DNA of 64,000 nt from contig NW_002476361.1 of the NCBI RefSeq assembly GCF_000189635.1, positions 496,001-560,000 of the forward strand. The letters run 5' to 3'. Below the pieces are notes generated by a model. The model did not search any database. It was given only the letters and a program-made list of their open reading frames with translations, and was not told the DNA's origin. The translations under genes and the position numbers were made by a program. Below, one piece after another: positions 10,892-63,179 of this stretch. Positions within the stretch are counted from its first letter, which is position 1, and every line of letters starts with the position of its first letter. Source of the stretch: Tetrahymena thermophila SB210. Lineage: Eukaryota; Ciliophora; Oligohymenophorea; Hymenostomatida; Tetrahymenidae.

Positions 10892-12337
10892 TCAGATATT
10901 TATATAGTGCCCATAGTCGATAGTATTATTTTTGATATGATATGAATGATCAGAGTATATCATGGTTGGTTCAAGTGAGCTATTAGTCTAAGAATCATAG
11001 TTTAAAAACTAAATGAGGTTGTCGTTAATAATTTGGAGAGTTCCAAAACCTGGATCAAATGACCTGCTTAAAACCCATGTAGCGTTATAATATACATCAG
11101 TGTGTGCCATATCATCGCATCCAGCATTTCCTTGTAATATTTACATATAACTCTTAGGATTCAAAATAATATTTTGCTTGAATTATTAATAGGGCATTGT
11201 GTCATTTTAATACATAGGATAGTATTTAGTAGTTTCATGCTAATGAGCAGCCAAGAAAATATCAACTCCATACTTATAGAAGAGTTAATCGAATTATTGA
11301 TATTGAACATAATAATCATAACAATCAGCTCTTCCTACACAGTAAATAGGCTTGTGGCCGAGGATAAATATCCATGGTTGATTTTTTCTATTCAAATTAG
11401 CAGCAATTAAATCTTTTTCTACTGATTATAACATTGATTCTTAGATTTATGGATCGATAACTCCAGTTCCATTGTTAAAGTAGTGCAAATTTACAGACAA
11501 GAAATGAACTTTTCCAATATTAAAGGAGAAGACATTGTTATTTTGCTAGCTAATATTGTTCATCATATGGAATTTTTGATTAACGAATGCAAAGTTTTAG
11601 CAATCTTCATGGTTACCAGGACTAAACATGTATGGCCAATAACTATAAAAAGGTTCCATAGAATTCATATAAATGTCTCCTTTAGTGGCATTGTTGTTAT
11701 AAAACTCATAGGCGTAATCTCCTAAAAAGAGGATACCGTCGTATTCTTTCTTTTCCTCAACCAATTTAGATAAAGAGGAGATAGTATAATTTCCAGGTAC
11801 TGAGATTTCATGATCTCCAAATGCTAAAAATTGTTGAATTTCATCTGATGATCTGTCTCTCTTAGGAATAATGCCTGTAAATACTCTTGGACTTTCATTA
11901 ATGTTTCCATATATTTTGTAAGTAAATCTCTTTTAAAACGAGCATAAATCAAAAGTAAAATAGTGAACGAATTTCTAGTAGTAAACTTTTTCACAATTTT
12001 TTCCATTGTGGCAAAATTTCTCTCCATTCCAGCTTTATTCAACTACTGATTGTTTTACACCTAAAATAGGTTCAGCATTTTATTAGAAGAAATTCTTAGT
12101 TTCAAATAGTTCTGCTTCTTCATTAGTTTCAGGAAAGACAATAACATATGAATCTGAACATTAGTTAACAGTAGAAAAAGAAATCTAAAGTGTGTTAGTG
12201 CAACCTATTTCAGAATAGTCAGGAGAATAATACTCGCCTAAAGTCATGTAAACTGTTTCAGGATAGCAGTTATCATTTGAACTTACTAGACCTACTATAG
12301 AAAATAGGACCATCAAAAAGGCCACTTTCATACTCAT
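10892..12337 (-). CDS. Purple acid phosphatase-like, secreted, 481 aa
   Basis: A single exon of 482 codons. The N-terminus is a signal peptide (MSMKVAFLMVLFSIVGLVSS), so the protein should enter the secretory or lysosomal route. Purple acid phosphatases use a two-metal centre to hydrolyse phosphate esters. Motifs in order: FGDHE near residue 175, LGDYAYE near 205, SPGNHED near 245, ILGHKPIYC near 325 and AAHQHE near 360. GNHE, GHxP and HxH match family metal ligands. The first motif is usually GDxG and here reads GDHE, and the last is usually GHxH and here reads AHQH. Length is within the usual range. Several NxS/T sequons are present (NNT, NAT, NGT). The second ATG, two codons downstream, is an alternative start. 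Substrate is unknown. Confidence 0.85.
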
Positions 12338-14704
12338 TTTTCTAATTTGTAAATAAAATCCAAATTTAAAACTTTTGTTTTCTTTTCTTAATTAATTAAT
12401 TATTTTCATGGAGCAAACTAAAAATATAAAGTAATTCCCCGATTAAGATTACATTATTTTCTATTAAATTATTAAGAAAAAATACAATATTGAAATATTC
12501 TTAAATACCATTCACTATCAGAAGCTAATCATCAAGGATTGAATGAATCAGTGATAAATTATATATACTTGCTTCATAAAATTTTATGATTGCTTTAATC
12601 ATTATTTAAAAGTTAAGATATTTTGTAATTGTAAATCTCTCTTTTCTATTAGTAATTTTGATGATTTAAATAATTTATTCTTCTATCCATTAAATCAAAG
12701 AAAGCAACAATAGTTTTCTCATTAAATTTATAAATGTAAAAATTTGTTTTTTTTCTAAAATTAATCTATTTTTTAATTTCATTTTTTTTAAAATAAATAA
12801 TTCATCTAATCAAACAACCTGTTGTTAATATCTTTTAGACAAGTTTTATTAAAAGTCTTAAATTATAAATGAAATTTATTATTCTTAATAATTCAAAAGT
12901 CATCCATAATTTACAATTTTAAATATATTTTTCATTTATTTTTATTAATTTCAAACAAAATCTAAAATCTTAAAAATACTTGTATAATTTAAAGTTATGT
13001 TTTTTTTATTTCATGATTATTTTATGAACTCTCAAAGTAAAAAATAAATCCTGAAATTAATAGTTTAAAATTAAACATTTTGGGTAAAAAATATTTAAAT
13101 ATTTTATGGTATAAATTATAAATTCTATTTAAATTAAGAAACACATTTAAAAATAATTTTGTGAAATAGAATAAAATTTTGAAAAAATGTGCTGTTGTAA
13201 ATTGATAATACTGTTTAAGCTTATTAAATATTAAAAAATAAAATAAGAATTTAAATTTATTGAGAAATAACTGAAAAAATCAAATAAATAAAAGTTAAAA
13301 AACGCAATTAATAGTTTAAAAAAATAAAAAATAGGATATTTAATTTAAAAATCATAAATTCATTGATTTTTATAAAAAATTATTTATTTTAAATATATAA
13401 TTACATTATTAAAAATCTTTTATTTTCTTAAAAAGAAATAATATGCTTAATAATTTATTATCTTATTCTAATTTATTTTATATTTAATAATTTTTAGATA
13501 TTTCTATGAATAACAGTCATTTAATTATCTTTATATTGAAAGAAATAAATAGAAGTTAAATTTATTTTAAAATATTTAGTTTTATGCTAAAAATAATTTT
13601 TTTGTTTTAAAATATTTATATTAATAAAGCTGCTTTTTATTCTTCCAAAAAAATACATCTAAAAAAACAAATTAAAATAAAAAAAATTAAATTGCTCTAA
13701 ACATTCTTTAAAACATGATGAATGTTTTATTTGAATCAAATATTTTATTTTTTGTTTCTAATTCGTTACACATACATAATATTTCATAAAAAATTTTATA
13801 TATTTCATTAAAGTGCTAACTAACTACACTCTTTTTCAAAGTTTAATTTATCTTTTATACTTTATTTTTAGATTGAAAAAAAGTAATATTCCAACACTAA
13901 TTTTTATTAAACTGATCTAAATTTAGCCAAATTTAATATTTTAAGATTTTTTATCTTAAAAATTCTTAGTTTCAAATGAAGATATAATCAACATAAATTA
14001 ATTCCTCATTTATTGGTTAAATAATTTTTAAAGAGAGCATGTTAAGAATATTTATAAAATTAAAGTGATGAAATTTCTTTTTTATATTATTTTTATTAAT
14101 GTTTTTCGTTGTTTTATTAATTTAAAAAAAATTTTTTAATATCTCTCAAATCTAAAAGTGGCTACCTAAATACTTCAAAAATACAATAAATAAGCGGAAT
14201 TATTATTTGATTATATTTTTTTGTTTGCAAAACTCATAATAATTTAGTTTTTGTGAAAATAATATTTTTAAATATCAAATAAATATTTTTATGTATTTAT
14301 GATATTTCATTTCAATTTTAGTTGAAATTCTTCATTACTTTAAAAATATTTGAAAAAAAATCTTTATAAATATTTTTTGATTTAATATTAAATATCTCGC
14401 AGCATTATTTACTTTTTTTAAATAGTTCTTCTACTTTATGGTCAAATGGGGCTACAAATTTCAAAAATATATTAAATTGGCAAAATTTATTTTTGTAAAA
14501 TAGTACTTTCTGAAAAGTTCTAAGTTGCATAAGGCATAATTAATATGAATTAATTAGTTACTGGTATATATTTTGCTATTAATAACGATTATAAGGAAAT
14601 AATTCACAAAAATTAATATAATTAATTAACAAACTAATAAGTTTTTTTGCTAATTAATTTTAAGACATCTAACAATCAATCTATTTAGAAAATCATTTAT
14701 AAAA
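12338..14704. other. 2.4-kb AT-rich intergenic
   Basis: No protein-like frame was found on either strand. It includes a GC-containing patch at 12434-12444 (ATTCCCCGATT), about 100 bp upstream of the phosphatase start. Two loosely similar patches at about 14155-14215 and 14395-14490 share GGCTAC followed by TTCAAAAATA. These may be old repeats, but I cannot show it. Confidence 0.5.
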
Positions 14705-15975
14705 ATGTCAATACAAATTGAAATTAACTCAGAGGGTGAAGCTTAAAATTCTTAAATTGTTGGATATCTCCTTGAAAGAGGATACAAAATAATCAAGCAG
14801 ATTGGAAAAGGATATTATGGAGTTGTTTACAAGGCGCTGCATATAAAAGATAATACAATTGTAGCAATCAAAGGAATGGTTTTTAATTCACAAAATGAGA
14901 GGTAAAAGCTAATGAATGAATTCTAATGCCTTAAATCTATTGATCACCCAAATGTTATTAAGGTCTTAGAATACATAGCCTATCCAGATAACTCATGTGG
15001 CTTTTACTCTATGGAATTCTGTCAAAGTATTTCTTATATTTTAATAATTTATATTCTTAACATTAAGCCTCGATTTGTTTTTTTACTCAATACACATTCA
15101 ATATAAAAGGTGATTTGGCAGAAGTGCTTGAAAAACATAGAAAACAAAAAACTTGGTTAAATTAAGAAGATATTTATTTTATAGCAAATTAAATACTGCA
15201 AGGACTAAAAGCAATACACTAAAAAAATATTATCCATTTCAATATAAGTTGCGAAAATGTTTTATTAGGCTAGGACGGACAATATAAAATAGGTAAATAT
15301 TAATTACTATTTGTTATGTTTCAATTAAATTTCTAAATTTTAATTTTTTCTTTCTTTCTGTGCAAATTTTTAATAACTCAAATTAATAATAAATAGGTGA
15401 TTTTGGAGAGTGTAAAAGATTAAATTAAGGGGAAAATTCTTCAAAAACTCATGTAAATTCTTCCTCAAATTATTGCTCTAAATCTGCTCAACAAAATAAA
15501 ATCAAAGCGAGTCGAAAATTTAGAGGCATTTTGTTAATTAAGAATTCATTTTATTTAACTAAATAAAAAGGGTGAATGCTCAAGAAAATATGGCTCACCA
15601 GAACAGCTTCATAAACTACTCCAAGTGAAGGACATACAACATTACACATAAAGCGTAAGCGCTTTTAGTATAATTTTAAATTATTAATAAGAAAATAATT
15701 ATAAAAAGAGTGACATTTATAGTCTTGGCATTGTCTATTACTATCTAACTAATAGAACTCTAGATTATGAGCATGTTCCTATCTTTAAAAAAGTTGAATT
15801 TCATTCATTCTTAAACCCAGAATACAGCTAATTTAATACTTTGATTAGCTAAATGATTTAATTTAGACAAGAAGACAGAGTTAAACTACACTCTGTTGAA
15901 AACACTCTTTCCTATCTTATACAAAATAATAACTAAAACTCACTTAAATAAATCTACTAAAATGTTTCTAGCTGA
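14705..15975 (+). CDS. Protein kinase-like, probable pseudokinase, 303 aa
   Basis: The protein is a nearly bare kinase domain. Visible landmarks are the Gly loop IGKGYYGVVYKA, the strand-3 lysine in TIVAIKG, helix C region NEFQCLKSIDHPNVIKVLEY, DFGECKR, the APE-like SPEQL and the helix-F segment SDIYSLGIVYYYL. The catalytic loop reads IIHFNISCENVLL where active kinases read HRDxKxxN, so both the Arg and the catalytic Asp are replaced. ATP binding may persist, but phosphotransfer is doubtful. Exons are 14705-15026, 15110-15292, 15397-15452, 15571-15654 and 15709-15975, summing to 304 codons. The intron at 15453-15570 is the least sure: its first part also looks coding, and only removal of the whole stretch keeps SPEQL in frame. 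Target and pathway are unknown. Confidence 0.75.
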
Positions 15976-31450: not shown

Positions 31451-31590
31451 ATTAATTAATTAATTAAGAATATTCCCCGATCAGTTTATCTAATTATTTT
31501 GTTTATCCTATTATTTTTTCAATTAATTAAGACTATTCCCCGATCAGTTTATCTAATAATTTTGTTTATCCAATTATTTTATCAATCTAA
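31451..31590. repeat. Two 63-bp direct repeats with CCCCGATCAG core
   Basis: The two copies share ATTCCCCGATCAGTTTATCT and the following TAAT..TTTTGTTTATCC, with cores at about 31473 and 31536. They lie 160-300 bp upstream of the start of the Cys-cluster gene on the minus strand, so they could be regulatory, but that is inference. Confidence 0.7.
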
Positions 31591-32107: not shown

Positions 32108-32342
32108 TAATATATATTTATTTTTTCATTTATTTAATAAACTATTTATTTACTTATTAACTTACCAAAATAAATAAAAAAATACGATATTCATATAAAT
32201 ATAAATATTAATAAATATTTCTATCTATATATATTTTAGGTTAAATTATCATATTAAAAAATATTATATAATAAAACAAATAGTATTTTCTATTATTAAA
32301 ATATTTAATTTTTATTCATCCTCTTTTCACCACTTGTTATTA

Positions 32343-35300
32343 TCAACAGAATTTAATATTAAATAATACTAATCTTTTAAATTTTCGGCATTTGTTTTTC
32401 AATTATGATTATTAGATTAAGCTGAAAGTTCCTTAACTAAATAATTAACTAAAAAAAAATTAAATAGAATAAAATTTTTTAAAAAAATAAAATTTAAAAT
32501 TAATAAAAATAAAAAAAGCATTAGTAAGTTAAAAAAGAAAAATAAATCAAATAAAAAAAATATCAAATAAATTAAAAGAGTTTTTATTTTTTTAAATTCA
32601 TTTTTATATTAAAAAATATCACAATCCAAAACAAATAAACTGTTTTTACCTAAGATCAAGTGTAAAATTTGAGAGATTAGCGCATTTTGCTAAAGCAGAA
32701 CCTAAACTTAATGCACCTTATTAGCTAATAGAATTATTACTTTTTAAATATTGAAGAAAAAATATATAAATAATTAGTTAGTTAGAAGGGAGAAATGAAG
32801 AAAAATTATGTTGAAAATAAAATAAAAAACAAAGCAAAAGAGCAAAATAAAAGAATTATATTATTTTATATTCTTTTTTATATTAAAAATAAATATCACA
32901 ATCCAAAACAAATAAACTGTTTTTACCTAAGATTAAGTTTCAAATTTGAGAGATTAGTACAATTTGCTAAAGTAGAACCTAAACCTAATGCATCTTCATC
33001 ACAAATATTATTGAAGCTTTTTAAATATTGAAAAATAATATATTATTATTTAATTATTTAGAAGGAAAAATGAAGAAATAAAAATAAATAGAAATGAATT
33101 AATTAGTTAAAAATAATAAATTCAAAATTTGAAAATAAAAAAATGAGCTATATAAAGAAAGATAGAAGAAGAAAAAACCATAAGTACTATAAAAAGAAAA
33201 ATAAAACTAATGAAAAGCTAATAAATATGGCAATCCAAAACAAATAAACTGCTTTTACCTAAGATTAAGTGTCAAATTTGAGAGATTAATGAAATTTGCT
33301 AAAAAAGAATATAAGTATGATGCTTCTTATTTATCTTATTTGCTTATTTATATCTAACTTTTTAAATATTGAAGAAAAATAAAAAATTAATTAGTATTAA
33401 GAAGAGAAAAATAAAGATAAAATATGAAATAATAAGAAATTAACTCATTAATAATATTCAAAAACAAAATTTGAAAAAAAATGAGTAAATTAAGAAAGAT
33501 AGAAAGAAAAAAAATGTAAAATAAAAACTCAATAGAAAAATAAAATCAAATAAAAAGCTAATAAATTTAAATAGTAATATTGTTTTATATTAAAAAATAT
33601 CATAATACAAATAAACTGTTTTTACCAAAGATTAAGTGTTAAATTTGAGAAATTAGTACAATTTAATAAAACAAAACCTAAGTTTGATTCACCTTATTTT
33701 CTTATTTAATTCTAACTTTTTAAAAATTGAAAAAAAAATATATTTAATTAGTTATTATGAAGGGAAAAATATGAATCAATAAGAAATTAATTAATTAATA
33801 ATATTAAAACCAGAATTTGAAAATAAAAAAATTATTAAATTAAGTAAGATAAATAATTAAAATAAAAAAGTAATAGAAAAATAATAAAAAGCTCATAAAC
33901 AAATTAAAAAAGTTAATTATATTGTTTTAAATTCATTTTAATATCTAAAAATATCACAATCCAAAACAAATACTGTTTTTACCTAAGATCAAGTCTCAAA
34001 TTTGAGAGAGTAGTGCAATTTGCTAAAATAGAACATAAGTCTGATGGACTTTATTTGCTTATTTAATTCTCACTTTTTAAATAATGAAAAAATATATAAT
34101 TAATTAGTTATTATGAAGAGAAAAATGAAGAAACAATATGAAATAATAAGAAATTAATTAAAAGCCAAATTTAAAAATAAAAAAATGAGTAAATTAGAAA
34201 GGCAGACAGATGAAAAAAAATAATTAAAATAAAAATGTAATAGAAAAATAAATCAAAATAAAAAGCTTCTTAACAAATTAAAATAGTTAATTTTATTGTT
34301 TTAATTCATTTTTATAACTAAAAATATCTCAATCGAAAATAAATAAATAAACAAACTGCTTTTACCAAAGATCAAGTGTCAAATTTGAGAGATTATTATA
34401 ATTTGCTAAAATAGAACATAAGTCTGATGCACCTTCTCCTATTTAACTTTAACTTTTTAAATATTGAAGAAAAAATATATCATATACTTTATAATATCAT
34501 CATCCCCCTATCCTCAAAATTTATAAAAAATTAAACTAATAATTTTTAATTAAAGATCTCATCTTATTTTAATGAATGATTTACATTAAAAAGAAGACAA
34601 CTTAGGCTATATGAATATACATACATATATTAATTTCATAGCCCTTCACATTGAAGTTATATTTGATTGGGGTATGATGTTAATTAGAAGTAAAAAATGA
34701 AGATAAAAAATTAATGAAATAATAAGAAATGAATTAATTAATAATAATAAAGTAAAAACTAAAAATAAAAAAACTTATATTAAGAAATATAGAAGAAGCA
34801 AAAAAACATAAGTACAATAAAAGAGAAAAAGAAAAATAAATCAAATAAAAGCTAATAAACAAATTAAAAGAGTAATATTGTTGAAAATTTATTTATTTTT
34901 ATATTAAAAAATATCACAATCCAAAACAAATAAACTGTTTTTACCGAAGGCAAAGTGTCAAATTTGAGAGATTAGCACAATTTGCTAAAGCAATACATAA
35001 GTTTGATGAACCTTTTTTGCTTATTTAATTCTAACTTTTTAAATTATGAAAGAAAATATAAAATTAATTAGTGGCTAAGAAAGAAAGGAAAAATGAAGAA
35101 AAAATATAAAATAATAAGAAAGAAATAAATAAATTAATAATATTAAAATCAAAATTTAAAAATGAAAAATGGGTTAAATTAAGAACTAGAAAAAAAAAAC
35201 ACAAAATAAATTAAGTACAATAAAAAATAAATTTGAAAAATAAATCAAATAAAAAGCTTTGAATAAAATTAAAATGGTTATTTTATTTTATATTAAAATA

Positions 35301-36947
35301 TATCACAATTCAAAATAGATAAACTGCTTTTACTTAAGATTAAGCGTCAAACTTGAGAGATTAGTGCAATTTCCTAAAGCACAACCTAATTTTGATGCAC
35401 TTATTTCATTTATTTTATTATTACTTTTTAAATGATGAAAAAAAAAAAATCTTATTAATTAGTTTTTAAGAAGGGAAAAATGAAGAAAAAATATAAAATA
35501 ATAATAAATGAATAAATGAATTAAAAACAAAATTTGAAAATAAAAAATGAGTTAAATTAAGAAAGATATAAGAAAAAAAACACATGGGTAAGTACAATAA
35601 AAAATAAATTTTAAAAATAAATCAATCAAATAAAAAGTTATTTAATAAATTAAAATAGTTATTTTATTTTATATTCATTTATATTTAAAAACACAGTTCA
35701 AAACAAATAAACTGTTTTTACCTAAGATCAAGTGTCAAATTTGAGAGATTAGTGCATTTTGCCAAACTAGAGCCTAAGCTTGATACACCTTTTTTGTTTA
35801 TTTTATTCTGACTTTTTAAATATTGAATAAAAAAATTAAATAAATAATTAATTAATTCGTTATTAAGAAGGGAAAAATGAAGAAAAAATATGAAATAATA
35901 AGAAATAAATTTTAAAAATATCAAAGCTAAATTTGAAAATAAAAAAATGAGTTAAATTAAGAAAGATATGAGAAGAAAAAACATAAACATATACAATAAA
36001 AAGAAAAATAAATCGAATAAAAAGCTAATAAATAACTTAAAAGAGCTACATTATTTTAAATTCATTTTAGTAACTAAAAATATCACAATCCAAAACAAAT
36101 AAACTGTTTTTACCTAAGATTAAGTGTCAAATTTGAGAGTTTATTGCAATTTGCTAAAGCAAAGCCTAAGCTTGATACACCTTATTCGCCTATATTATTC
36201 TAACTTTTATATATTGAAGAAAAAATATAATAATTAATTTGTTATTAAGATAGGAAGAATGAATCTAAAATATGAAACAATGAGAAATAAATTAATTAAT
36301 AACAATCAAATCAAATATTTAAAAAAGAAATGAGTTAAATTAAGAAAAAAGATAGAAGAAGAAAAATAAATAAATAAAAAGGAAAGAAAAATAAATCAAA
36401 TAAAAAGCTAATAAACAAATTAAAAAAGTTAGTTATATTGTTTCAAATTCATTTCTATAATAAAAAATATCACAATCCAAAGCAAATAAACTGTTTTTAC
36501 TAAAGATCAAGTGTCAAATTTAAGAGATTAGTGCAATTTGCTAAAGCAGGACCTAATCTTGATGCACCAATTGAATCAATTGTATTGGGGCTTTTGAAAT
36601 ATTGATGATAAGATAAATTATTATTTAGTTATTTAAAAGCAAAAAAAAATGAAATAATAAGAAATGAATGAATTAATTAATAATAATAAAAGATTAAGTT
36701 AAAAATAAAAAATAAATGACTTTAATTAAGAATAATTAAGAAAGATAAAAATAAAGAAAAAACACAAGTACAATAAAAGGAAAAGCAAAGTAAATCAAAT
36801 AAAAGCTAATAAACAAATTAAAAGAGTATTGAATTGAAACAATAAAACTATTTTTACGAAAAACTAAGTTTCAAATTTGAGAGATTAGTGCAATTTGCTA
36901 ATGCAGAACCTAAGCTTGATACACTAATTGCATCAATTTTTTTAAAG
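32343..36947 (-). CDS. LRR protein from 12 tandem one-repeat exons
   Basis: Minus-strand exons at 36947-36858, 36590-36501, 36203-36114, 35811-35722, 35423-35334, 35034-34945, 34452-34366, 34072-33983, 33715-33626, 33357-33259, 33016-32927 and 32739-32650 each encode one LRR of about 30 residues. Ten are exactly 90 nt, one is 99 and one 87; all begin and end in phase 2. Typical repeat text is GALSLGSALAKCANLSNF, or SLGSSLAKCTNLSNLTLDL, an RNI-like LRR. The last exon, 32448-32343, ends KFKRLVLFNIKFC and TGA. All exons plus the 2 nt from upstream give 398 codons. LRRs of this type form curved protein-binding surfaces. The 5' end is not settled: a 30-nt phase-2 exon near 37331-37360 and an ATG at 37443 are candidates, but they do not join in frame. 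Several repeats have lost consensus residues, so the gene may be partly degenerate. Confidence 0.75.
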
Positions 36948-36990: not shown

Positions 36991-38955
36991 TAGAAGGAAA
37001 AATAAAGAAAATAATAAGAAATTAATTAATTAATAATAATAAAAGCATAATTTGAAAATAAAAAATGATATAAATTAAGAGAGAAAAAAATATAAGTAAG
37101 TAAGTAAGCACTAAAAAAAAGAAATAGAAAAATAAATCAAATTAAAATCTAATAAAAAAATTAAAAGTGCTGGTTATATTGTTTGTTTTAAAAATTAATG
37201 GAAAAAAGTGAGAATTTATGTTAAAAAATAATAAAATTAATAAATAACTTAAAATTTAAATATATCAAAAATGAATTATGATAATATTTATAAATTAAAT
37301 AAATAAATATACTTATGAAAGATATGGACAACCTAATGAGATTAGTGTTAAGAGTTTAAAAACTTTTTATATTAAAATGAATAAATTTAAACTATATTGA
37401 TAAAAAAATAAATAATTACTTCCTCTAATGTGTAGTCTATCATGATTTCTTTCTTTTTTTTCTTCAAAAATATTAAATACAAATTATTGAAAATTTAATT
37501 AATTATAAGTGGATAAAAAGAACAAATTAAATATTTGAATTTATAAATTTGCTTTCACAAAAAAGTAAGTACGTAGGTAAGTTAGTTAGTGTAACTTTCA
37601 TTACTTAATCTTAATATTTCTTATAAGGATCTTCAAATTCATATATAGGCCGCTATTTCATATAACTCTAAATCAAATCTCTATATTATACATTCAAAAA
37701 CAAACTGTTAATGGTGTGAAGTTTATAAATGTAATTTAAAAACCCTTGATAAAAAAAGCTTTTAATAAAAATAAATGGTAGGTACTTAATAAAGATGGGA
37801 CTCGCTCTCATACTTCTAAAGCCAAACTTTAATCAGAGCTAGTGTTCCATATAATTTGCATTACACTTTTTTAGGATTTGTAACCTCTAATCGAATTCTA
37901 GTTTATATAATAATAAAAGAGTAGTGTAATCAATATATTTTCTTAGGTTTTTTATCTAAAATTGCTTACAGATATTTTAATTTACTGTATGTCACTTAAG
38001 GTTGATTTTGAAAATATGTCATACAACCCATTTTCTTATATATTTTCATATAAAAACTAAAAGTTAAATGCATAATAAAACAAAAATAAAACCAATAAAA
38101 TATAGTTAAAGAATATTTAAGGCTAAAATAAAAAAAATAATTTTATTTAATAAATCTATCTTTCTAATTTATTGATAGTTTACTTTATCTTTGGAAATTC
38201 TATCTTTTTAAATAAATGATGAAATAGCAATAAACACAAATAAAAACGATAAAAAATTATTCTAAAGCAATTAAATACAATAAAATAAAATGAAATTTTT
38301 GAGAAATATTAGACTGCCTATTTTGAAAATGTTAAGAAATTAATTTTATTAATGTTATTGTAATTTTTTCATTTATTTTCTATTAATAAATTTATTTTAA
38401 CAAATAATAAATAGTTAGTTAATGGATGGATTTAAAAACATTATAAAATAAACATTAAGAGGATTTTAAAAACATTGATAAATAGATAAATTTTTAAGTT
38501 AAAATTCCTTTAAATTAATTCTACTAAATATAATTAAGAACAAGAAAAAGCTTTATATTACATTCAACATACAAACAAACAAACAAACAAAGATATTCTA
38601 TTTAATTTTTATTTATAAATTTACATAATAGATGAAAATATTCAAAGAGATGGATATTAATTGATAATAAATCCAAAATATCTTGGTGTGGTTATATTTA
38701 ATAATCATAAAGGAGATTTTAAATTTCTTATTGTATTAATAACTTCTTTTCAAATATAGAAACCATTAATTATTCAATAAAAAACACTTTTACATTTCAT
38801 AGCAACCATTCGTAAGTATTTTGATTAATTAATTATTAGCTAATAAATATATTTAATTATTTTCTACATTTTTTAATTCAATTAATAAGATAAATTAACA
38901 AAATTAATCAATTTATATTAAAGATAATATTTTATTTTGCAAGGTAGAGAAGAGC
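36948..38955. other. 2-kb AT-rich region, possible 5' exons of LRR gene
   Basis: The part up to about 37200 continues the intron-like sequence of the repeat array. A minus-strand ATG at 37443 (MIDYTLEE) preceded by an A-rich leader could start the LRR gene. A compact GC-richer patch at 37795-37848 slightly resembles a decayed tRNA but does not fold properly. Nothing else recognisable was found before the next gene. Confidence 0.4.
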
Positions 38956-45797: not shown

Positions 45798-47005
45798 ATT
45801 TGAAAATGATATTTTCACTTAACTTTACTCTTGTAGTTTAAATGATATTTTTCATTTCATTTAAATGTAACTTGTAGTTAAAATTATGAAAATAAAATGA
45901 TTGTTTTATTATATAAGAATTTCTTTGTATTTTCAACAATTTGAATATATTTTTTAATAAATTTTAAATTGGTGATTTCTTCTTTTCTTAGCTAAAATAG
46001 ATTAGCTTGTGACAGAAATTTTTTGAATGGCATAACATGTTAAGTTAATATTTTATGATAAATTCAATTTATTTTAACTGCTAAATAAAAATAAGTCTAA
46101 TTGTAAGCAATTTTTAAATACCATTCTAATTTGATAGTTTAACGTCTACAGAATTTATTTATAATTATGGAATTTAATGCTTATTTTTGTTCATTGTCTA
46201 CTAATTTAGATTTTAGCCATCTTGCTTCTCTATTTTTAAAATATTGTGTTAATATATTATGATTTTTTGTTGAAAATAAGATCAAATTGAAAAAATATTT
46301 TTAGAGATTTAAAAAATTTTGTTAATTTAGAAGAAAATAATGCGTTTTTCATTAAATCTCCATTTTATGCTTTATCATTTTTGCTTTCATCTCTATTTCA
46401 TGAAAAAATAATAAAATATATTGCTTATTTTTAAATATAATTGAAAATGCAAATAAAAAACATTTACTTTACTAAGAACCCTCTAATTTTAATACATCAT
46501 TTTGTTGTTTTGCTTCAATCATTGAGTTAATAAATAAGTATTGCTTTTATTCTACTATTATTCTTTCTTATAGATTTATTATTTTGATTAATAATTTAAG
46601 CGATATCAAATCAAATATAAATAAATCTTATTTACTGATTAAAGCTTTCAAAATTTCAGTTGTTTATTATCTATAAAAAAGTAAGCAAATATGAATTAAT
46701 TTTGTTAATAAATATCTTTTTTTGAATATTAAAATTAAAATATTTGTTAAACTTAAAATTATTTTTGTATTTCAAAAATGTATGTTTACAAATCTACAAC
46801 AAATTTTTTAATAAATGTTAAATTTTACTTTATCTCATAAAAATAGAAAATATTATTAACTCTACTTGTTATGAATTGTATTTATTTTTGCTAAAAAATA
46901 CGCAAAAAACTTTATCTACATATTAATTATTTTTATTGAATATAAATATAATGCTTTAAATTTTACATTTGAAATATTAATTTGTTAATGCTATTTAGGA
47001 GAAAT
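45798..47005. other. AT-rich intergenic after the gap
   Basis: No protein-like frame was found on either strand. The sequence is A/T runs up to the start of the tRNA-modifying enzyme. Confidence 0.5.
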
Positions 47006-49060
47006 ATGGAAAAAAAAATACAGAACTTTTCTTTATACATAATAGGAACAACAGCTACTGGCAAAACTAAATTATCACTCAATATTGGGGAAAGATTTAA
47101 AGGCTAAGTAGTATCTGCAGACTCTATGCAAATGTATAGACATGCTGATATTCTAACTGCGAAGGCTACAAAAGAAGAACAATCTATTGTTAAGCACCAT
47201 ATGATTGATATTTTTGATCTATAAGTAGTCAATTTTAACAGAAACGACTACTATTATTTGGCTAAGTAGGCCTTTGATAAGATTCACTCAGAAAATTCCT
47301 TCCCAATAGTCATTGGTGGAACAAATTATTATATCGAAACCCTTTTATTTAAGCAAAAAATAGCTGAAAATAGAATTAATTTAGAAGATCCAAATGCTTT
47401 TATCTTGGAAATGTAAAAGAAAGCCCTCACAAATTTTGGCAATACAGACGAAAATTATCCGCTTTAAAAGTATTAAAAAAATGACAATGAAAGCAACTAA
47501 TAATTGAAAAGCAAAGATAATGAATCCTAAGAAGATGAAGATGAAGAATACGAAAATAATTTACCACCTTTATATGAAAATGATAACATTTAGAAATCAA
47601 AAGAAGTCCTTGATAAAGAATAGGAAGTTAGGATATAGCTTTAATAAATGTCCAATGAAGAAAAATACAAATAATTAAAGGAGCTGGATCCTCTTATTGC
47701 AAATAAATTACATCCAAATGATGAAAGAAGAATATAAAGCTATTTGATGTAGGCTTTAGTCACAGGTATACCTCCTAGTAATTCAATGGAAGATCACGAA
47801 AATGTTCCATTGAGAGATAAAAACTGTTTGATCTTTTGGCCAAGATGTAAGTCAAAGGAAAAGTTAGATGCTTAAATTAGAAAAAGAATTTATGAAATGA
47901 TTTCTGAAAATGGAATTTACGAAGCCTTTTATATTTTCGAAACAATAATACCATAAAATGTAGAATCAGAGGAAGATCCAATTTTCCTTAAAGGTGTGTT
48001 ACAATCTATTGGATATAAAGAATTCTTCCCTTTCTATAGACTCTATTTATCTAGAAACTATCCTCATAATTTATCAAGTAATTATATTAACTATTCTTTT
48101 TGAGTATTTTATCAGCTAGTAGTCACTTTAACACTAAAATATTATTACTTAGCTTAGTAGTCACTATAAGCAATACTATAATATTAATTATATTTTAATT
48201 CATACTGAATATCGTTTTAATGTCTTTTAGAATGTTTATTCCTATGATTTAAACTAATGGATTAGATTTTATACTAAATATAAAATTAATTTTACAAGAT
48301 AATATTTTTTAAGATTTGAATTTACTCATTCAATACATTTTTTTATTTTTTAGAAGAAGAAAAGACTGCATAAATTAAATAATTAATGTATGAAGACGAG
48401 GAAGGGAAAAAGGTTATTACTTAATGCATAGAGAAATTAGTTACACATACCATATAGTATACAAAGAGGTAACTAAAGTGGATTAGACATAGAATTATGA
48501 TGAATTCAGATAGCGAAGAAATCAAAAACAGACTCTTTGTTTTTGAATTTGATGAATTTACTTCTGAAAACTTTAAAGAAAAAGCAATTAATCCAGCAAA
48601 TGAAATAATTTCAAAATACTTTGAGTTGGCAGAAAAATATAATGAATCAAATGGAGATTAGCATCCAATTGAATAATTAGCAAATGATGAATTCTTAAAA
48701 TAGTATCTTATTAAATTGGATGAGCTCATGGACGTAAGAAAAGCGCATATGAAGAAGGGACTGAAGGATTGGAAAAACTATTACTGTGATATATGCAAAA
48801 AGGAAATACATGGAGAACTAAACTGGTCTATTCACAACACAAGCAGAAAACATAAAAAGGCTATTAAACATATTGAAAAATCTGCAATAAGAGCAAAATA
48901 TTAAGAATTAAAATCTAAAAAGGAAGAATTAAATGAAAAAGATGGAAAAGAAGATAAATCCAAGTTAAGTAGTGATGAAGACCTTAATGAAAACAATAAT
49001 TTAAATGATTAAACATAAGAAAATGATAAAATTTAAGCTGAAAAAGATAAACACGATTGA
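47006..49060 (+). CDS. TRIT1: tRNA isopentenyltransferase, C2H2 type, 592 aa
   Basis: The enzyme transfers a dimethylallyl group to adenosine 37 of tRNAs that read codons starting with U. The P-loop is [11 protein letters not shown] at residues 13-23; [12 protein letters not shown] and the substrate motif [11 protein letters not shown] follow, all diagnostic of the MiaA/Mod5 family. Residues about 150-215 are an acidic, Gln/Asn-rich insertion ([14 protein letters not shown]) not present in bacterial enzymes. [17 protein letters not shown] and [12 protein letters not shown] complete the catalytic part. The C-terminal extension carries the eukaryotic zinc finger [12 protein letters not shown] followed by HNTSRKHKK, expected to help tRNA binding. 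One 276-nt intron at 48078-48353 separates the conserved core from the extension, and the spliced frame is 593 codons. Cytosolic, nuclear or mitochondrial location cannot be decided. In Tetrahymena's code, UAA and UAG are sense, so UNN-reading Gln tRNAs might be additional substrates (inference). Confidence 0.93.
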
Positions 49061-50126: not shown

Positions 50127-53100
50127 ATGAGTAAAAAAAGATCAGGTAATTCAAGGGTTTCCTACCACTTAAAAAATTCTGGGTATTTCATGGAAGAGGC
50201 ATTCAGCTAATCAGAGTATGAAATAGTGAAAAATGATTCTTTAGAATTGAATGCAAAAAATTAAGATAAATTCTACTTAAAGCCACATTAGCTGAATAAT
50301 TTAATCTAAATCAATAATTCTACTTACAGCAATACGAGTAACAGAAAGAAGCAGCAAAGTTCATACCTTTCTCCAAGATTGTTAACAGCTTCTACTACCA
50401 CTCAAAGATCATCTTTCAATAACTCAAACATGCTTCATTCAACTTCGAATTCTCAAAATTTAGGCATTAATTATGCCTTGCAAAACTCCTACTAAAATAA
50501 AAATAGATCATTAAAGTTATCTCTACATGAAAAAGTTTAAAAGAAACCTTCAAAATCTGTATATAACTCTAATGATAATGTTTTTCTTGATGATATTTGC
50601 ATTAAAGTTAATTCATCAGACATCTATAATAAAAAAGAAAAGGGCTCTCAGTTGTTAGTAGCCAGCATTAACTCTGAAAGGAGTGAAAAAATTGGTAAAT
50701 ATTCTCTTTAAGATAATTATTAATTGTAAAATTTAATAAATTGTTTTAAAGGAAAGAGCAAAGAGATTTGTAAAAATATATTTCTCACAACACATGATAA
50801 AAGTAGCGATGCAGTTATTGAAACTATACCTAATACTAAATAACTTATCAATTATAAAAATTCTTTACCTCAAAAATAGGAAACTATTTAATAGGATACA
50901 AATTTCTTTGATGAATTTAAACTAAATTCATAAGAAAGTGAAAATAAATAGTTGTCAAAGCCACATAACTTGCTCATTAATAATTATTCCAATCCTAAAT
51001 AACCAATCCTAAGCAAAATATTTTCCTCTTAAGCAAACCTCAAAACCAAAAATTTAGTGTATCAATAATCTTAAAATCTCCCAATTACTTCCAGGTTATA
51101 TCATTTATTTTTTTTTCATCATCAAATTTATAAATACAATTTTTGTTTACAATAAAAGAAATTAAAAGTTTAATAGATGGATGTTAAAATATTCTATTTA
51201 TTAAACTTAATAAGTTCTTTGTATAAAATATTTAATTAATTAAATTCCATTAAAACAAACCAAACAATTTTAAAAATTAATATTTTAACTTAACAAGTAT
51301 AAAAAATTTTTTTTTTTCTGTTTAAATATATTTGAAATGCTTAAATTATTTTTATTGTAGGCTTTAAATGCTTGTAAATAATAAAGTTTAGTAGAAGTTT
51401 TCTGAGAACTCATAGAATGAAAATACATCAATAATAGATGCTCAAAAATAAATTCAAGCTAAGTCTTAAAGAGACCTTAGTATTAATTCAAAAGATGAGA
51501 AATAAAATCAAACTGAAATATCTATTGCTTCTCCGTTAGATTCAAAAAGGAAGATTTAATAAGAATAAAAAACATCTTTACAATTAAATTATTAGCTGCT
51601 TGTAGAAAAAGAAAATATTTTTATGAATGTAAATTATTTATTTTAATACTTTATAAATGAATATAAGAGAGTATCTAATATGTATAAATTATCTTCTACT
51701 TATCGTTAAGGTATTTAAAACCTTTACTAAGCTCATGCGTTTTGCACAAGCAAACTGCTTTCCCACATTGAAGCTTGGCAAGAAACTAAAAAAAACAAGA
51801 ATTCAAATGAAAATAAAACTACTGTAATTAATTAATAATATGCTAAATTTATTTGTGAATATTTTAATTAAATTACCTTTAAAATAATAAATAAAATATA
51901 AAGAATATTGTCGAATAGACTACTGACAGCATAGCTATTGATGTCTTTTTATCTAAAAATCCTATGCAGATTATGAGTGTAAGTTTGGCCTGTGCTAAAA
52001 TATATATAAATTTAAAGAAACCAATAAAAGCTATACCGATATTAAAATAGTGTAAAAGGTTAAGTGATTTATATAGAAATCAGAATTACAAAATGAAATG
52101 CTACAGAGCGCTCAGTGAATGCTTTATCATGATAAGAAAAGAAAGTATCGCAGAAAAATTTGTGAAAAAGTACTTGTAATTATCATGGTGTAATAAAAGT
52201 GATAAAAACGAACTTTAAGCTTACGATATGCTTGGTTTAATTAGCTATTACAATGGAGATATAGAAAGAGCTAAATTTTATCATCATAGAATGGCTAATA
52301 ATATTTTAGAAGATGAAAATTCTTAGCTCAGAAAAATATCAATTCTTAATTAAGTTACCAAACAGAAAAGAAGAGATGAAAAAATGAAAGATGAAAATCC
52401 TCCAATTAATAAAAAAGTTGAAGGTAATTAATTCATTAATTTTACTTTTATCTATTTTATTTATGAAGTTTTCTGTTTCATTTTATTCACTGCCATTCAA
52501 TTTTAAATTAGCAATCAATCGAACATTTTAAATCATTAAAATATCTCCAAATGCATTTATAAGTAAGTGTATATGGCGATATTTCATTTAATTTTAACAT
52601 TAATTAAGGACAAATTCAAATCAAAATTTTTGTATCAACTAACTATAAACAGCGATAGATATCCATATTTTTAATTTTCAAATCACTATATTTATGGTAT
52701 ATTGTTTATTTTATTAAATTTAAATAATTTAGGAGATGAGAACACTTTTATTGACTCATCCGATGAAGAAAATGAAGAAATATTACTTGTGCCTGAACCA
52801 AACTAACAAAATTAAATGGATGAAAAAAATGTAAATAAAATATAATAATTTAGAATTAAAACAATTAAATTAAATTTTTAAAATAAATAGAACAATTTTG
52901 ATGGAAGTAAAATTTAAAATTAAAAAATAATAAAAAAGTAATTATTTAATTATAAGATCCAAATAAAAGATTCTTCAAAGAAAGGTATTAAGATAGTAAT
53001 GAATAATACAAATAATATAACGATTAAGATAAGATATCACCTTAAGTCTACCTTGCATCAAAGTAGGGATTTGAGTTGAGAAAACAACCATTTAAAACGT

Positions 53101-53658: not shown

Positions 53659-54683
53659 ACTTACATTAAAAACAAACTCTATTTTTAAAATAAACAGTTA
53701 GTTAGTTAGTTAATTCTTTAAACTTATTAAACTTGTTTCAAACTTTTATTAAAATTATTAATTTGTCACATTCTTTATAAAAATAATAATAACAATATGA
53801 AAAATCTATTATATCTTCTTTTTATAACTTATCTATTTAATCTTTGCAATAAAATTTTTTATTTCACTTATATTTCGAGTTTTTATTATTTTCAATTTCT
53901 TTTTAGATTTTAAGGAAATTTTATTCAATTTTAAAACAATTTTACAAACAAATTGAGCATCTTTTATTTTAATATTTATTGATTCTTTAATTAAAAAATA
54001 GAAATGATTTAATTAAAAAATAATTTATTTTATTTTTTAATTTAATATTTGATTGAACAAAATGGGTTGATTTTTTGAAATAATTTCAAAAATATCAAAG
54101 CAATTTTTATAAAATAAAATAAATTTGGTTGATTATGGCATTGTCAAGTTTACTTAAACCAAAGAGATGACTCAATCTCATGTATAAATCTACATTGCCT
54201 TTTTTTTCAATTCATAAAAAAATTCTGGATTGTTTAACTTTTTTAAAAATAAATATTTGAGTTAGAAAAAATAAACTTTTTTTAATTTTTTTTCTTTAAG
54301 AAAATAATGGTTAAGTAAATTTATATTAAGTAACCTAAATATTTATTTTTTTTTCAAATGATAGCAGAATTTCGATCAGATCTTTTTAAAGTGTTTGAAT
54401 TACATTTTTATAATAGAGACTAAATTGAACAAAGCATAAAATATTTAGAGTAGTTTTTATATTTGAAAGATACTTAATTTTTAATGAGGTTATTTGTTGT
54501 AGTAAGATATAAAATATCTAGAAATAGATTAGAAAGGATAAATTGATAGGAAGAAATTTAATATCGCTTGACTATAACCATTGTAATTTTATAATTTACA
54601 GCATGTTTTTAATTATGATAATAATAAACAAATTAAACTTAAAAAATTATAAAAAAACACATTGATTAATAAAATAAATAGGA
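53659..54683. other. 1-kb AT-rich intergenic
   Basis: No protein-like frame and no repeat beyond A/T runs and a (GTTA)n run near 53700 were found. Confidence 0.5.
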
Positions 54684-55964
54684 ATGCTTTTGAGAAGAAT
54701 TTGGATAATATAGATTATCCTGTTAATTTCTGTTTTATTTATTTTAGGTACAACAGCAAGTAGCAGCACTCAAGAAGTAAATAATTAGCAAACGCAATTA
54801 CCTGGATCATAGCTAAAAGCTTTAATAGTATTTACTAGACACGGAGCAAGAACACCTGCAAATGAGGATTACTATAAAGAAGAGTGGGATGGCTTGAAGA
54901 AGGGAGATTTGACAGAGAGAGGCATTAGATAATTACAAAATTTAGGCTAATCATTTAGAAAATTATACCCTAATTTTTTCAAGAGCGAGTGGGATCCATA
55001 ATTTTAAAAGGTTAAGTATGCCTTATTTTTGCAGCGTACTATGCTCTCTATGCTTTCATTTTTCCATGGACTTTTCCCTGATTTATATAACAATAAATCA
55101 CTGCTTACTCATAAAGAATTATATGAACCTAACAAAGAACTTGGAATAGATATTGGATATCCTAAAAATCCAAGAGATTTGATTTTCAGAGCTATCTCTC
55201 GTGTAAATTGCAAATTAGGCGATGATCTTTTGAGATAATACAGCAACGGAAAAAAATTCATGGCAATATAAAACAGATTTTTAGATGATCCTTTAATGGT
55301 TTCCATCAAGTAAAAGCTTTTAGACTACAGAGGAAATCCTAATGAAGATTTAGAATTTAAAGATATGTATCATGTAAAGGAGATATATGATTCATTTTTA
55401 TGCAATAAAAATGGAGGTAAAAAAATACCAAATTTCGATGAAAAAGAATTAGAATTTTTGAAGTAATTGTATGAAATGTTTTTCTTCAGATTTTATGGAG
55501 TTAGAAAGCACAGATTGATTTTTAACTCTGCATATTATAGAGAAGTATTAAATTTTGTTGAAGATCTCAGATTTGGTCGCACACCAAATAAATTTTTCTT
55601 TTTCTCTGGCACCAAAACAAATATTGCTATTATTTTAAGTTCCTTATTAAGTAAAGGTCAAATCATAAATCTTGGAGATAACAAGATTGCCCATCTTTCA
55701 ACTACATTTGTAATTGAAGTTTACTAGAAGCAAAATGATGGAAGTATTTAATTAACCGAAGGAACTGTTGAAAATCCAATCCCCAAAGAATAGCTTTATG
55801 TATCAATTAAATACGCAAATAGTCCATTACCCTTAAAATAATGCAAAGAAAGAATAAGATGCACATACAAGGAGTTTATAATTCTCCTAAAGACTAGAAT
55901 AATTAAAAACCTTGAACAGGTTTGTGATAACTCTTTTTATCCATTTAAATAGCAAAAAAGTTGA
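54684..55964 (+). CDS. Histidine acid phosphatase-like, HD motif lost, 426 aa
   Basis: A single exon of 427 codons. The N-terminus (MLLRRIWIIQIILLISVLFI) is a signal peptide or anchor, placing the protein in the secretory route. The first catalytic motif is intact, VFTRHGARTPAN at about residues 50-61, where the His forms the phosphohistidine intermediate in branch-2 histidine phosphatases. GDLTERGIRQLQNLGQSFRK follows, with the family's LTxxG motif. The second catalytic motif, usually SGHDTT or similar with HD as proton donor, is replaced by FFFFSGTKTNIAIILSS, where TK occupies the HD position. Length fits the family. This predicts a protein that may bind phosphate esters but with strongly reduced or altered catalysis. 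Tetrahymena secretes many acid phosphatases, so this may be a diverged paralogue. Confidence 0.88.
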
Positions 55965-60352: not shown

Positions 60353-63179
60353 TCAAAAGCAGCAGTACATTAAAACTAATCTTCTTAATTTTTTAAACAA
60401 AACTTTTGTCTTAAAATTACATTAATTGCTAATCAAATTATCCCTTTTCAAAAAAAATATTTAAAATAGAATAGGGGAAGAAAGAATTAGAAAGTACTAT
60501 GCATATAATTAGATCTATAGAAGATTTTTACAATTCTTAAGTTCTTAGCTTAAATCAAAAATGTGGTTATTTTCTAATAAATTCATACTAATTATTTCAT
60601 AAAAAATTGTTAACTATTTATTTTTAAACAAACAAATATTAATTCAATAAAATAAAATAGTTATAAATTAATTACTTAAAAAGAAATTCATATGAAAAAT
60701 TATTAACTAAAATGTTACTTATACAGGCAGGTATTTAGAATTAAACACTTATTCAAATAATTTCGATAATTTTAAGTTTATACTCAATTTAATTTAAAAT
60801 TTAAAAAATAAACAAATGGCTTACTTTAAATTTAGTGAGATTCTTTGAAGTTATTGAAAGTTTGATAAGGCTTTTCCTAATTATGATAGACCTTTCTAAC
60901 CTAGTCCGATATTATTATGGCTTATTAAATTGATAAATAAATAAATAAATTTAAAAACTGAAATGTTAAAATGTAAAGGTTTACTAACAATCAATAATAA
61001 TTTCTCTGAGATTAGATAATCCTTAAATTGCTTCAACAAGTTAAATTATGTCTTCTTGTTTTATTTTATTATCCCTATAAATTATTTTTCTTTAGTTGGA
61101 GAATTTAATTATTAGTCAATTTACTTTAAACTCAAATAAAGAATTTAAATGCTTTGACTTTTGCTAATCTATAAGCCTAACTCTCTCAGTGCTTCTTAGT
61201 TTAATTTACTTGAGCTTATAAAAAATGATAATTAATTAATTTCTCAATTATTTTCTTAGTTTATTACTCAAAGCTTAATTGTAAATATTTAAGGATTTTT
61301 AATGAAGATAAGAAATTTCCTAATTAAGATATGTCGTCTTCAAATATCTGAATAGAACTATTCATTTATATTTGTTTGGATTTAAATATAAATTTTAGTA
61401 AAAATAATAAATATTTTAACTTAAATTATAAGCATAATTCTTTTATTTTATTATTGTCATTAAGTAAAGAAAAGCTAGAAAAACCTCCATTTCCAAGTTA
61501 ATTTCCACTAATTAAAATTTAATTAAAAATAAATCAATTTGTGAAAAGAAAAATGAATAAATTAAGTTCAACTTTAAATAATAAGCCAGCTTTTCCAGTA
61601 TCAATAACTCAGAAACAGACTAATTCAAATAAGTTAATCCTTTCTTATTAATGAAACAGTAACTTTTTTATAAATTAAATTTTATATAAATTTGTAAATT
61701 TGTTGGAATATTTATTTATTTACTCAGCTTTAATAACAAAATGAGTAAGTTTATTTAGTTTAATTATTGCTTAAGCTATGTAGTTTAAACCTTAATCTTC
61801 GATGTTATTATAGCTTTTTAAATATATAAAAAAAATATATATATATAAGCTTTTATAGTTTAATTTTACTTTAAATTAAGTATGAGTTTATTTAAATTAG
61901 TCATGTTTTTGATTGCCTTAGAGACAGATTAACAGCCTTGAATGCCAATTTTATTTTACCTTTAAAAATAGTTTTAATTTAATAATAATAATAATAAATT
62001 TTTATATTTCTTAATTTCCATAAATAGATTAATTCATATTAATACTTAAAATTATATTTTATTTAATATAATTTTTTTCCAAATTTTTTGGTTTAATCTC
62101 ATAATAAAATTTCTGTTGCCAGTATGTACTGTAGTTCCTCATATATTAAGGTCTGTCCACCTTCTTCATTTTTAACCCATTTTTCATAAGTTTAAAATTT
62201 TCAAAAAATTGACCTTAAATAAAAAATTCTTAATATTTGAGAATCTACAGACAATTTATATATCTTTTATTTATTTATTTATTTATTTAATTTTCTTTTT
62301 AATTTTTTATAATTTTTAAAATATGGCAAATTAATTTTTACTAAAAGCATATATCAAGTTCTTGAAGGCTCTTTAGTGAATTTAAATCTTCAAAAATTGA
62401 AGCAACAGCTAATTAGCCAAGAGAATTTCGGCTTTTTTATATAAAATAATTATAGGTAAATTATAATAAAATTAATCTTACTTAAATGATACTTAAAGAG
62501 AACTTAAATTTAAACACTTAGAAAGAGCTATTCCTAATTCATCTAACTTATCATCTCCAATATTACATGAGCTTTTAAATGATTTTTATTATTATTTTAT
62601 TTTGAAATTATAAATTATACATAAAAGCTAAGCTTAAATGTTTTAACTAATTTAATGATTATATCGATTTTGCAATATTAATCACTCCTGCAACTCCTAA
62701 AGTACTATTATATCTATTTAAATTAAATTTTAGCTAAATAATTTTAAATAAATAAATTTATTTATTTATTTATACCCAATAAACAAATTCAAACTTTTTA
62801 GATTTTTCAAGGTAGCAATAGAATTAGAAATTTATGACGAGCCTTCTGAATCTATTTCAATACTCAACCTAAATTTTGAATAAGCTTTAGAAAATTAATT
62901 TATATAAAAGTATGTACGAAAGTTATTCTAAATTTTCATTTTTGGATAACTGTATTGCTAATCTCTAACTTTATTCTTTTGATGGCTTTTATCTAAATAA
63001 ACAATTTTGTTGTTAGTTATTTAAAAAATGAAATAGTTTTACGAAAAATATAAATTAAGCTCAGTTTAATTTAGAGGAGTATCACTTTGTAAAAACTTTT
63101 TTTATAAAATAAAGAAAATATTTTTCATAAATGATCTAAAAACTAAGTTTACTTATTCTCCGCTTTAAAATAAAACCAT
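60353..63179 (-). CDS. LRR protein, about 16 one-repeat exons, about 475 aa
   Basis: Exons on the minus strand: 63179-63043, 62992-62918, 62868-62776, 62713-62621, 62571-62482, 62431-62342, 61959-61870, 61813-61724, 61662-61573, 61507-61421, 61357-61268, 61214-61125, 61074-60985, 60920-60825, 60548-60498 and 60428-60353. All internal exons have phase-2 borders and most are 90 nt; the joined frame is 476 codons. Each encodes one RNI-like LRR, for example NIGDDKLDELGIALSKCLNL, VASIFEDLNSLKSLQELDI, EDQGLNYIAQAIIKLNKLTH and NNIGLGQKGLSQLGKALSNF. The terminal exon ends KKLRRLVLMYCCF, like the end of the other LRR gene. Repeats are well diverged from each other, unlike that gene. The first exon may itself contain a 57-nt intron. 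Introns are mostly 50-75 nt, except one of 382 nt (61960-62341) holding the element-end-like sequence. Ligand unknown. Confidence 0.8.
62127..62156. repeat. Solo sequence related to the inverted-repeat arm
   Basis: Thirty bases here share TCATATATTAAGG(C/T)CTGT and the leading TAC with the left arm at 4292-4321, about 23 of 30 positions. No partner arm was found nearby. It lies in the 382-nt intron of the LRR gene. It may be a decayed copy of the same element. Confidence 0.5.

Follow-up and report, generated by a model that had tools for sequence, protein, structure and literature searches.

Twelve tandem leucine-rich repeat exons in a Tetrahymena thermophila gene, and variation at predicted contact residues among related arrays

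We analysed a 64,000-nucleotide stretch of the Tetrahymena thermophila SB210 genome (contig NW_002476361.1, positions 496,001 to 560,000; hereafter the window, numbered from its first base), the minus strand of which carries twelve consecutive exons that each encode one leucine-rich repeat (LRR). The gene that they form, here called the window gene, is a member of a large, published family of ciliate LRR genes built from 90-bp exons, and the finding is in that sense already known in kind. The species is borne out by the telomerase gene of this genome: two of its exon blocks, read in the ciliate code, align to chain A of PDB entry 6d6v, the T. thermophila enzyme, and mismatch it only at their edges, where the frame passes into introns. 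We consider it very probable that this LRR-family gene is protein-coding, that its array changes by unequal crossing-over in the germline, and that its contact residues have been diversified, with binding or recognition as the most likely role of the product. Though the exon design has been described before and the window gene itself is one more example of it, the pattern of variation on the predicted contact face is an added part that is worth following.

Ten of the twelve LRR exons are exactly 90 nucleotides (nt) long, one is 87 nt and one 99 nt (Table 1). All twelve have AG/GT borders and phase-2 ends, and with the ciliate code none contains an in-frame TGA, a triplet that is absent from the coding frame of these exons and occurs 12 and 10 times in the other two frames. 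Ten of the eleven introns between them measure 187–302 nt and the remaining one 492 nt. The repetition runs on into these introns, since a 251-nt stretch is present in 10 copies (nine of them at 63–77% identity to the reference copy) and a 109-nt core of the repeat unit in 12 (eleven at 72–91%). A profile built from the 12 exons recovers the same 12 at E values of 1e-23 to 1e-30, as expected by construction, and beyond them returns one weak match (60853–60930, E 0.0018) and three at E 0.28–10. A first-pass annotation had proposed twelve LRR exons at these places, ten of exactly 90 nt and all with phase-2 borders, and each was recovered, on the minus strand; its description of tandem, interchangeable units that include their introns likewise holds. 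The longest intron carries an insertion of about 200 nt, the ends of which by eye resemble imperfect inverted repeats. Three other copies of this insert were seen in the genome (C382, C438 and C139; 81–86% identity); the C382 copy lies near LRR exons and an LRR-gene start, and the flanks fetched around the C438 and C139 copies showed no LRR exon.

The start of the gene seems to lie outside the span 32343–36947 that was first annotated, in two short 5' exons that were placed by aligning relatives. Querying the organism's own genome (101.0 Mb, a size that suggests the somatic assembly; 445 contigs) with the 5' region and scoring the best 40 of 531 candidates, one of which was the window, gave many related places; 28 rows, namely the window and 27 others, were aligned. 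In 20 of the 27 other rows the first exon has 13 codons, typically MIQQIK....LEE, and in 23 the second exon measures exactly 50 nt and runs straight into GT; the first intron is 55–61 nt long in the relatives and 57 nt in the window, where the LEE, the donor, the acceptor and the second exon all fit this pattern. At the 3' end, the left border of the first annotation, 32343, proved to be the end of the terminal exon's stop codon, and parts of the region around this exon (32300–32460) match 26 other places in the genome. The resulting 15-exon structure is a gene model built from sequence alone. Once joined, the exons can be read for 412 codons without a break up to a TGA, with 23 in-frame TAA or TAG codons read as glutamine, and GT/AG borders at every modelled intron; intron 1 is in phase 0 and introns 2–14 are in phase 2. 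Two alternative starts were set aside because the two-exon start is common to the relatives: a candidate exon at 37605–37642, the sole ATG exon ending in phase 2 in a first scan, and an extension of LRR exon 1 to an upstream in-frame ATG, which is also open. In the relatives the plus strand across the second exon can, by eye, also be read for about 25 codons before a TGA is reached; the minus strand was preferred for its splice sites and frame. Compared with domain models, the conceptual protein matched only LRR_1 (E 8.8e-6) at E up to 0.01; among PDB sequences there were eight matches, all to distant LRR proteins (best E 4e-8).

According to Xiong et al. (2019, PLoS Biol; PMC6564038), T. thermophila and nine relatives share an architecture of one LRR per exon, in which family exons are exactly 90 bp, more than 96% of them lie between phase-2 introns, the leucine codons are centred at exon nt 36, 48, 66, 75, 81 and 87, introns in T. 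thermophila peak at about 257 bp, and each gene has 1 to 51 such exons. Every published feature that we tested is found in the window gene, apart from two exon lengths: species, 90-nt exons, phase-2 introns, leucine positions, units recognizable at the nucleotide level and long introns are all shared. Exactly 90 nt is the length of 10 of its 12 repeat exons, including the first six in a row, and at the published leucine positions of these ten exons 57 of 60 codons encode leucine and 60 of 60 a hydrophobic residue. Besides the two exons of odd length, the window gene departs from the family in that eight of its 11 inter-LRR introns, at 267–302 nt, are longer than the 257-bp peak. Its intragenic repeats are detectable in DNA and its introns are long, which are among the marks of the young 'group III' genes of the family, and it is these that it most resembles; further marks of that group are masking by one of eight published consensus repeats and an association with the REP retrotransposon in the germline genome.

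Related loci were collected by best-match searches (the best 40 of 2673 candidates were scored) and lean towards young arrays for that reason. Eight fetched stretches hold 110 units, of which 107 are modelled at exactly 90 nt and one at 87 nt, and two could not be modelled; the main array strand holds 7 to 19 exactly-90-nt exons per stretch, with the proviso that one stretch may hold more than one gene. A further 36 segments were merged from 56 of 76 loci (five of those left out were the window itself, eight had been found by protein, and seven were others), and the exon finder, which skipped hits at segment edges and required a length divisible by three, an open frame and AG/GT borders, gave 234 of 250 units at exactly 90 nt, four of other lengths and 12 unmodelled. 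Removing the 15 segments with fewer than five exactly-90-nt exons left 21 arrays and 192 units for the analyses of diversity. The repeat period is mostly 346–351 nt in several related arrays, which implies introns near 257 nt and fits the published peak for T. thermophila. That arrays of this kind change in copy number, as the first-pass annotation had suggested, is supported in the form of differences in exon number between genes, both in our eight stretches and in the published range (PMC6564038).

Among 107 related repeats, the leucines, N2, I4 and C19 are nearly invariant, and positions 1, 28, 7, 3 and 6 are the most variable. Mean nucleotide diversity within the 21 arrays is 0.55–0.58 for codon 1; the opening base of codon 28 has 0.63, and the two bases of the exon junction have 0.66 and 0.57; leucine 29, which stands between hypervariable residues, lies at 0.01–0.14, and introns average 0.14. 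For codons 1 and 28 and the junction bases taken together the median is 0.544. It is 0.077 for a silent proxy, made up of the third bases of 13 conserved codons, and 0.177 for the 40 nt of intron near the donor; array by array, the variable sites lie above the donor-side intron in 20 cases out of 21 (Wilcoxon p 2e-6) and above the silent proxy in every one. A second measure based on aligned intron flanks gave a similar picture, with codons 1, 3, 26 and 28 above the intron in 20 arrays out of 21, and the first two bases of other codons above it in only 5. In array C142, the six units are the same over 20 nt ahead of the exon and 40 nt beyond it, and most of their differences fall into four small patches, with further single changes at codons 15 and 19; diversity in its wider intron flanks is 0.068. 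The window gene itself has 0.531 at the variable sites, 0.166 at the silent proxy and 0.374 in the donor-side intron. As to reassortment across the intron, of the unit pairs with identical codons 1–7 (n = 56) a fraction of 0.179 also agree at the right end of that exon and 0.054 at the right end of the upstream exon, the base rate being 0.018; in the few such pairs drawn from different arrays (n = 24) both shares were 0. Third-base GC in the related arrays is 0.01–0.07 at most codons, 0.54, 0.31 and 0.24 at codons 1, 28 and 7, and 0.89–0.96 at four conserved codons (11, 19, 22 and 25).

The LxLxxNxL rule places residues 28, 30, 1 and 3 at exposed sites of the LRR strand, facing the concave side. 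Because the repeats resemble one another in introns and at silent sites and yet differ at these predicted concave-side residues, the pattern at codon 28, the junction and codon 1 suggests diversifying selection on a contact or recognition surface. Neither positive or diversifying selection nor hypervariability nor the concave face is mentioned in the main text of the family paper (PMC6564038), and none of the other papers listed by literature searches was, by its title, on contact-residue variation, which does not prove it unpublished.

Several points weigh against our reading of the window gene. Its expression, splicing and function are predictions from its bases, and its ATG, eight codons before the first donor, is not the start codon of the relatives: in the 27 other rows an in-frame ATG stands 13 codons before the donor in 20, 12 codons before it in one and 24 in another, and is missing from five, two of which are cut off and one of which is not a true relative. 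It varies at other codons as well (5, 11 and 15), and the sites called variable were chosen after seeing which positions vary, although they coincide with the LxLxxNxL rule. A retrotransposon route has also been proposed for the family, and whole-gene Ka/Ks for LRR genes that occur in one or two species has a median of about 0.4, read as purifying selection (PMC6564038). That ratio compares genes rather than repeats within a gene, and a low Ka/Ks and diversification between repeats can be compatible.

The same codons could owe their diversity to directed mutation, through tiny gene-conversion tracts or an exchange of ready-made codons, in place of selection on ordinary mutations; we regard this as improbable, though the data pull in both directions. 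In seven arrays of low silent diversity, hand-picked mainly on that basis, 146 of 205 differing codon-1 pairs differ at two or three nt, compared with 87 of 508 for 23 other codons, and in the full set of 21, silent T/C disagreement is more frequent at codon 1 (21 of 147 pairs) and codon 28 (24 of 220) than at 15 control codons (588 of 11,856). The patches of array C142, set between common flanks, also speak for such a process. Within the seven arrays, however, 1 of 67 pairs shows silent disagreement at codon 28 and 35 of 3,509 do so at the controls (codon 1: 4 of 31), leucine 29 is fixed between two hypervariable residues, and the four-gamete criterion is passed by only 8 of 42 patch pairs; moreover, repeated replacement under selection would itself yield multi-base and some silent differences. 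The evidence on the mutational cause is mixed, and an exchange of ready-made codons between repeats is possible.

A different concern is whether the window copy is a decaying pseudogene of the family, which we think unlikely. Two of its 12 exons have left the 90-nt length, compared with 4 of 238 modelled exons in the relatives (p 0.029); of nine arrays it matches the family consensus least well (identity 0.67; 0.70–0.83 in the others), only 2 of its 12 exon peptides retain the family glycine at position 5, its start codon lies eight codons before the first donor where 20 of 27 other rows have 13, and one of its introns has taken up the insertion of about 200 nt. Set against these signs, 412 codons remain open, each modelled intron has GT/AG borders, only three of the 60 core leucines have been lost, both odd-length exons remain in frame, and the excess of odd lengths falls to p 0.20 once the relatives' 12 unmodelled units are counted as odd. 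Relaxed constraint was considered as a mark of decay and dismissed, as dN/dS between repeats within the window gene is 1.41, inside the 0.75–2.61 of eight relatives. The first-pass suggestion that part of the array is decaying thus draws weak support from the odd lengths, the low consensus identity and the displaced start, and runs counter to the kept frame, splice sites and leucines.

We return to the reading of the window gene as a coding LRR gene with a diversified contact surface. Each 90-nt phase-2 exon would add one 30-residue repeat to a curved solenoid, the scaffold of which would be kept by N2, I4 and the conserved leucines. Diversification would fall on residues 1, 3 and 28 and the junction residue (and on 6–7); the protein most likely acts in recognition or binding, with a contact surface selected to differ. 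The number and order of exons would change across generations by germline unequal crossing-over between homologous exon-intron units. The array in the window is consistent with this route, which is the published model for the family, possibly aided there by the REP retrotransposon (PMC6564038).

Exon number would change in this way rather than mainly by alternative splicing. That the array might instead be a device for making isoforms with different repeat numbers, by skipping or joining exons, has in our estimate only a slim chance of being correct. All 12 repeat exons are multiples of three in length and end in phase 2, their splice sites closely resemble one another, and the expectation of the first-pass annotation that exons can be skipped without a frameshift stands for these 12 and fails for the asymmetric second exon of 50 nt; such symmetry, however, also follows simply from duplicating one unit. 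An RNA-seq study of T. thermophila (PMC3274533) reports alternative splicing in 5.2% of genes and includes skipped exons, with introns at cassette events averaging 279 bp, close to the introns of the array, and for that reason some of these events may lie in LRR arrays; yet cassette exons account for only 139 of 1,474 alternative events genome-wide in that study. Alternative splicing is not mentioned in the main text of the LRR family paper (PMC6564038). Judged from the published counts, isoforms are unlikely to be the main source of diversity.

One feature of the exon design may tie crossing-over to the contact surface. The phase-2 intron would sit in the variable β-strand, residue 28 and most of residue 30 being coded before it and residues 1 and 3 after it, so that crossing-over in the long homologous introns could join new half-strands and leave the scaffold untouched. 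Extending this, we propose tentatively, and with rather more doubt than belief, that the 90-nt LRR exons of Tetrahymena, which number tens of thousands, together make up a hypervariable recognition repertoire encoded in the germline, in which introns let crossing-over remake the contact surface and of which the window gene is an older member. If true, a large LRR repertoire for recognition that evolves fast would then be known from a single-celled organism. The function of the family was left as a hypothesis by Xiong et al., with bacterial recognition among those named (PMC6564038); the marked variation at predicted contact residues makes it testable in a free-living laboratory organism.

Elsewhere the window holds matches to other domains (Table 1). 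Between 17331 and 26933 on the plus strand, successive frames match the VPS13 N-terminal, PH, VPS13 middle (below its curated cut-off) and VPS13 adaptor-binding models, and are perhaps one large VPS13-like gene. On the minus strand, 60832–60945 and 61760–61840 are weakly LRR-like (E 0.0018 and 0.28) and perhaps belong to another, older LRR gene; the two frames of this region had no Pfam match. Outside the LRR gene, 31458–31583 consists of two 63-nt direct repeats, head to tail and 94% identical.

Table 1. Features of the window, with positions counted from its first base
Feature	Positions	Strand	Remarks
Exon 1, MIDYTLEE	37420..37443	-	ends in phase 0; LEE and donor GTAATT align with relatives; frame continuous
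Exon 2	37313..37362	-	50 nt, phase 0 in, phase 2 out; aligned relatives; 57-nt intron before it
LRR exon 1	36858..36947	-	90 nt, phase 2; splice borders, profile match, frame
LRR exon 2	36501..36590	-	90 nt; splice borders, profile match, frame
LRR exon 3	36114..36203	-	90 nt; splice borders, profile match, frame
LRR exon 4	35722..35811	-	90 nt; splice borders, profile match, frame
LRR exon 5	35334..35423	-	90 nt; splice borders, profile match, frame
LRR exon 6	34945..35034	-	90 nt; splice borders, profile match, frame
Intron with insertion of ~200 nt	34453..34944	-	492 nt; insertion at about 34478-34678
LRR exon 7	34366..34452	-	87 nt, one codon fewer
LRR exon 8	33983..34072	-	90 nt; splice borders, profile match, frame
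LRR exon 9	33626..33715	-	90 nt; splice borders, profile match, frame
LRR exon 10	33259..33357	-	99 nt, three extra codons, in frame
LRR exon 11	32927..33016	-	90 nt; splice borders, profile match, frame
LRR exon 12	32650..32739	-	90 nt; splice borders, profile match, frame
Terminal exon	32343..32421	-	79 nt, stop TGA at 32343-32345; frame and TTTCAG acceptor
Calcineurin-like phosphoesterase match	10892-12511	-	
Protein kinase match	14944-15975	+	
IPP transferase match	46973-48103	+	
TTC21 C-terminal domain match	51859-53079	+	below curated cut-off
Histidine phosphatase match	54666-55964	+	

Arrays of similar exons within one gene are also a feature of Dscam, in which the members of an array are mutual alternatives. 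The first-pass annotation had drawn this comparison, which turns out to be a poor model: the window exons appear to code for successive parts of one protein, and nothing in the locus suggests a mutually exclusive choice. Lamprey variable lymphocyte receptors vary on the concave face of their LRRs, where the variation described here is also predicted to lie, and are assembled in somatic cells. In plant NLR and other LRR receptors, diversifying selection acts on solvent-exposed LRR residues; these genes resemble the window gene in having an LRR solenoid whose exposed residues, predicted ones in the window gene, differ more than neutral sites. They differ from it in that each repeat in the window is its own exon and that a search of the conceptual protein at E up to 0.01 gave neither a nucleotide-binding (NB-ARC) nor a kinase domain. 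PRDM9 carries a zinc-finger array of closely similar units that vary mainly at contact residues. Although the units in the window are LRRs with introns rather than zinc fingers, the two have in common a tandem series of very similar coding units that differ mainly where contact is made or, in the window gene, predicted.

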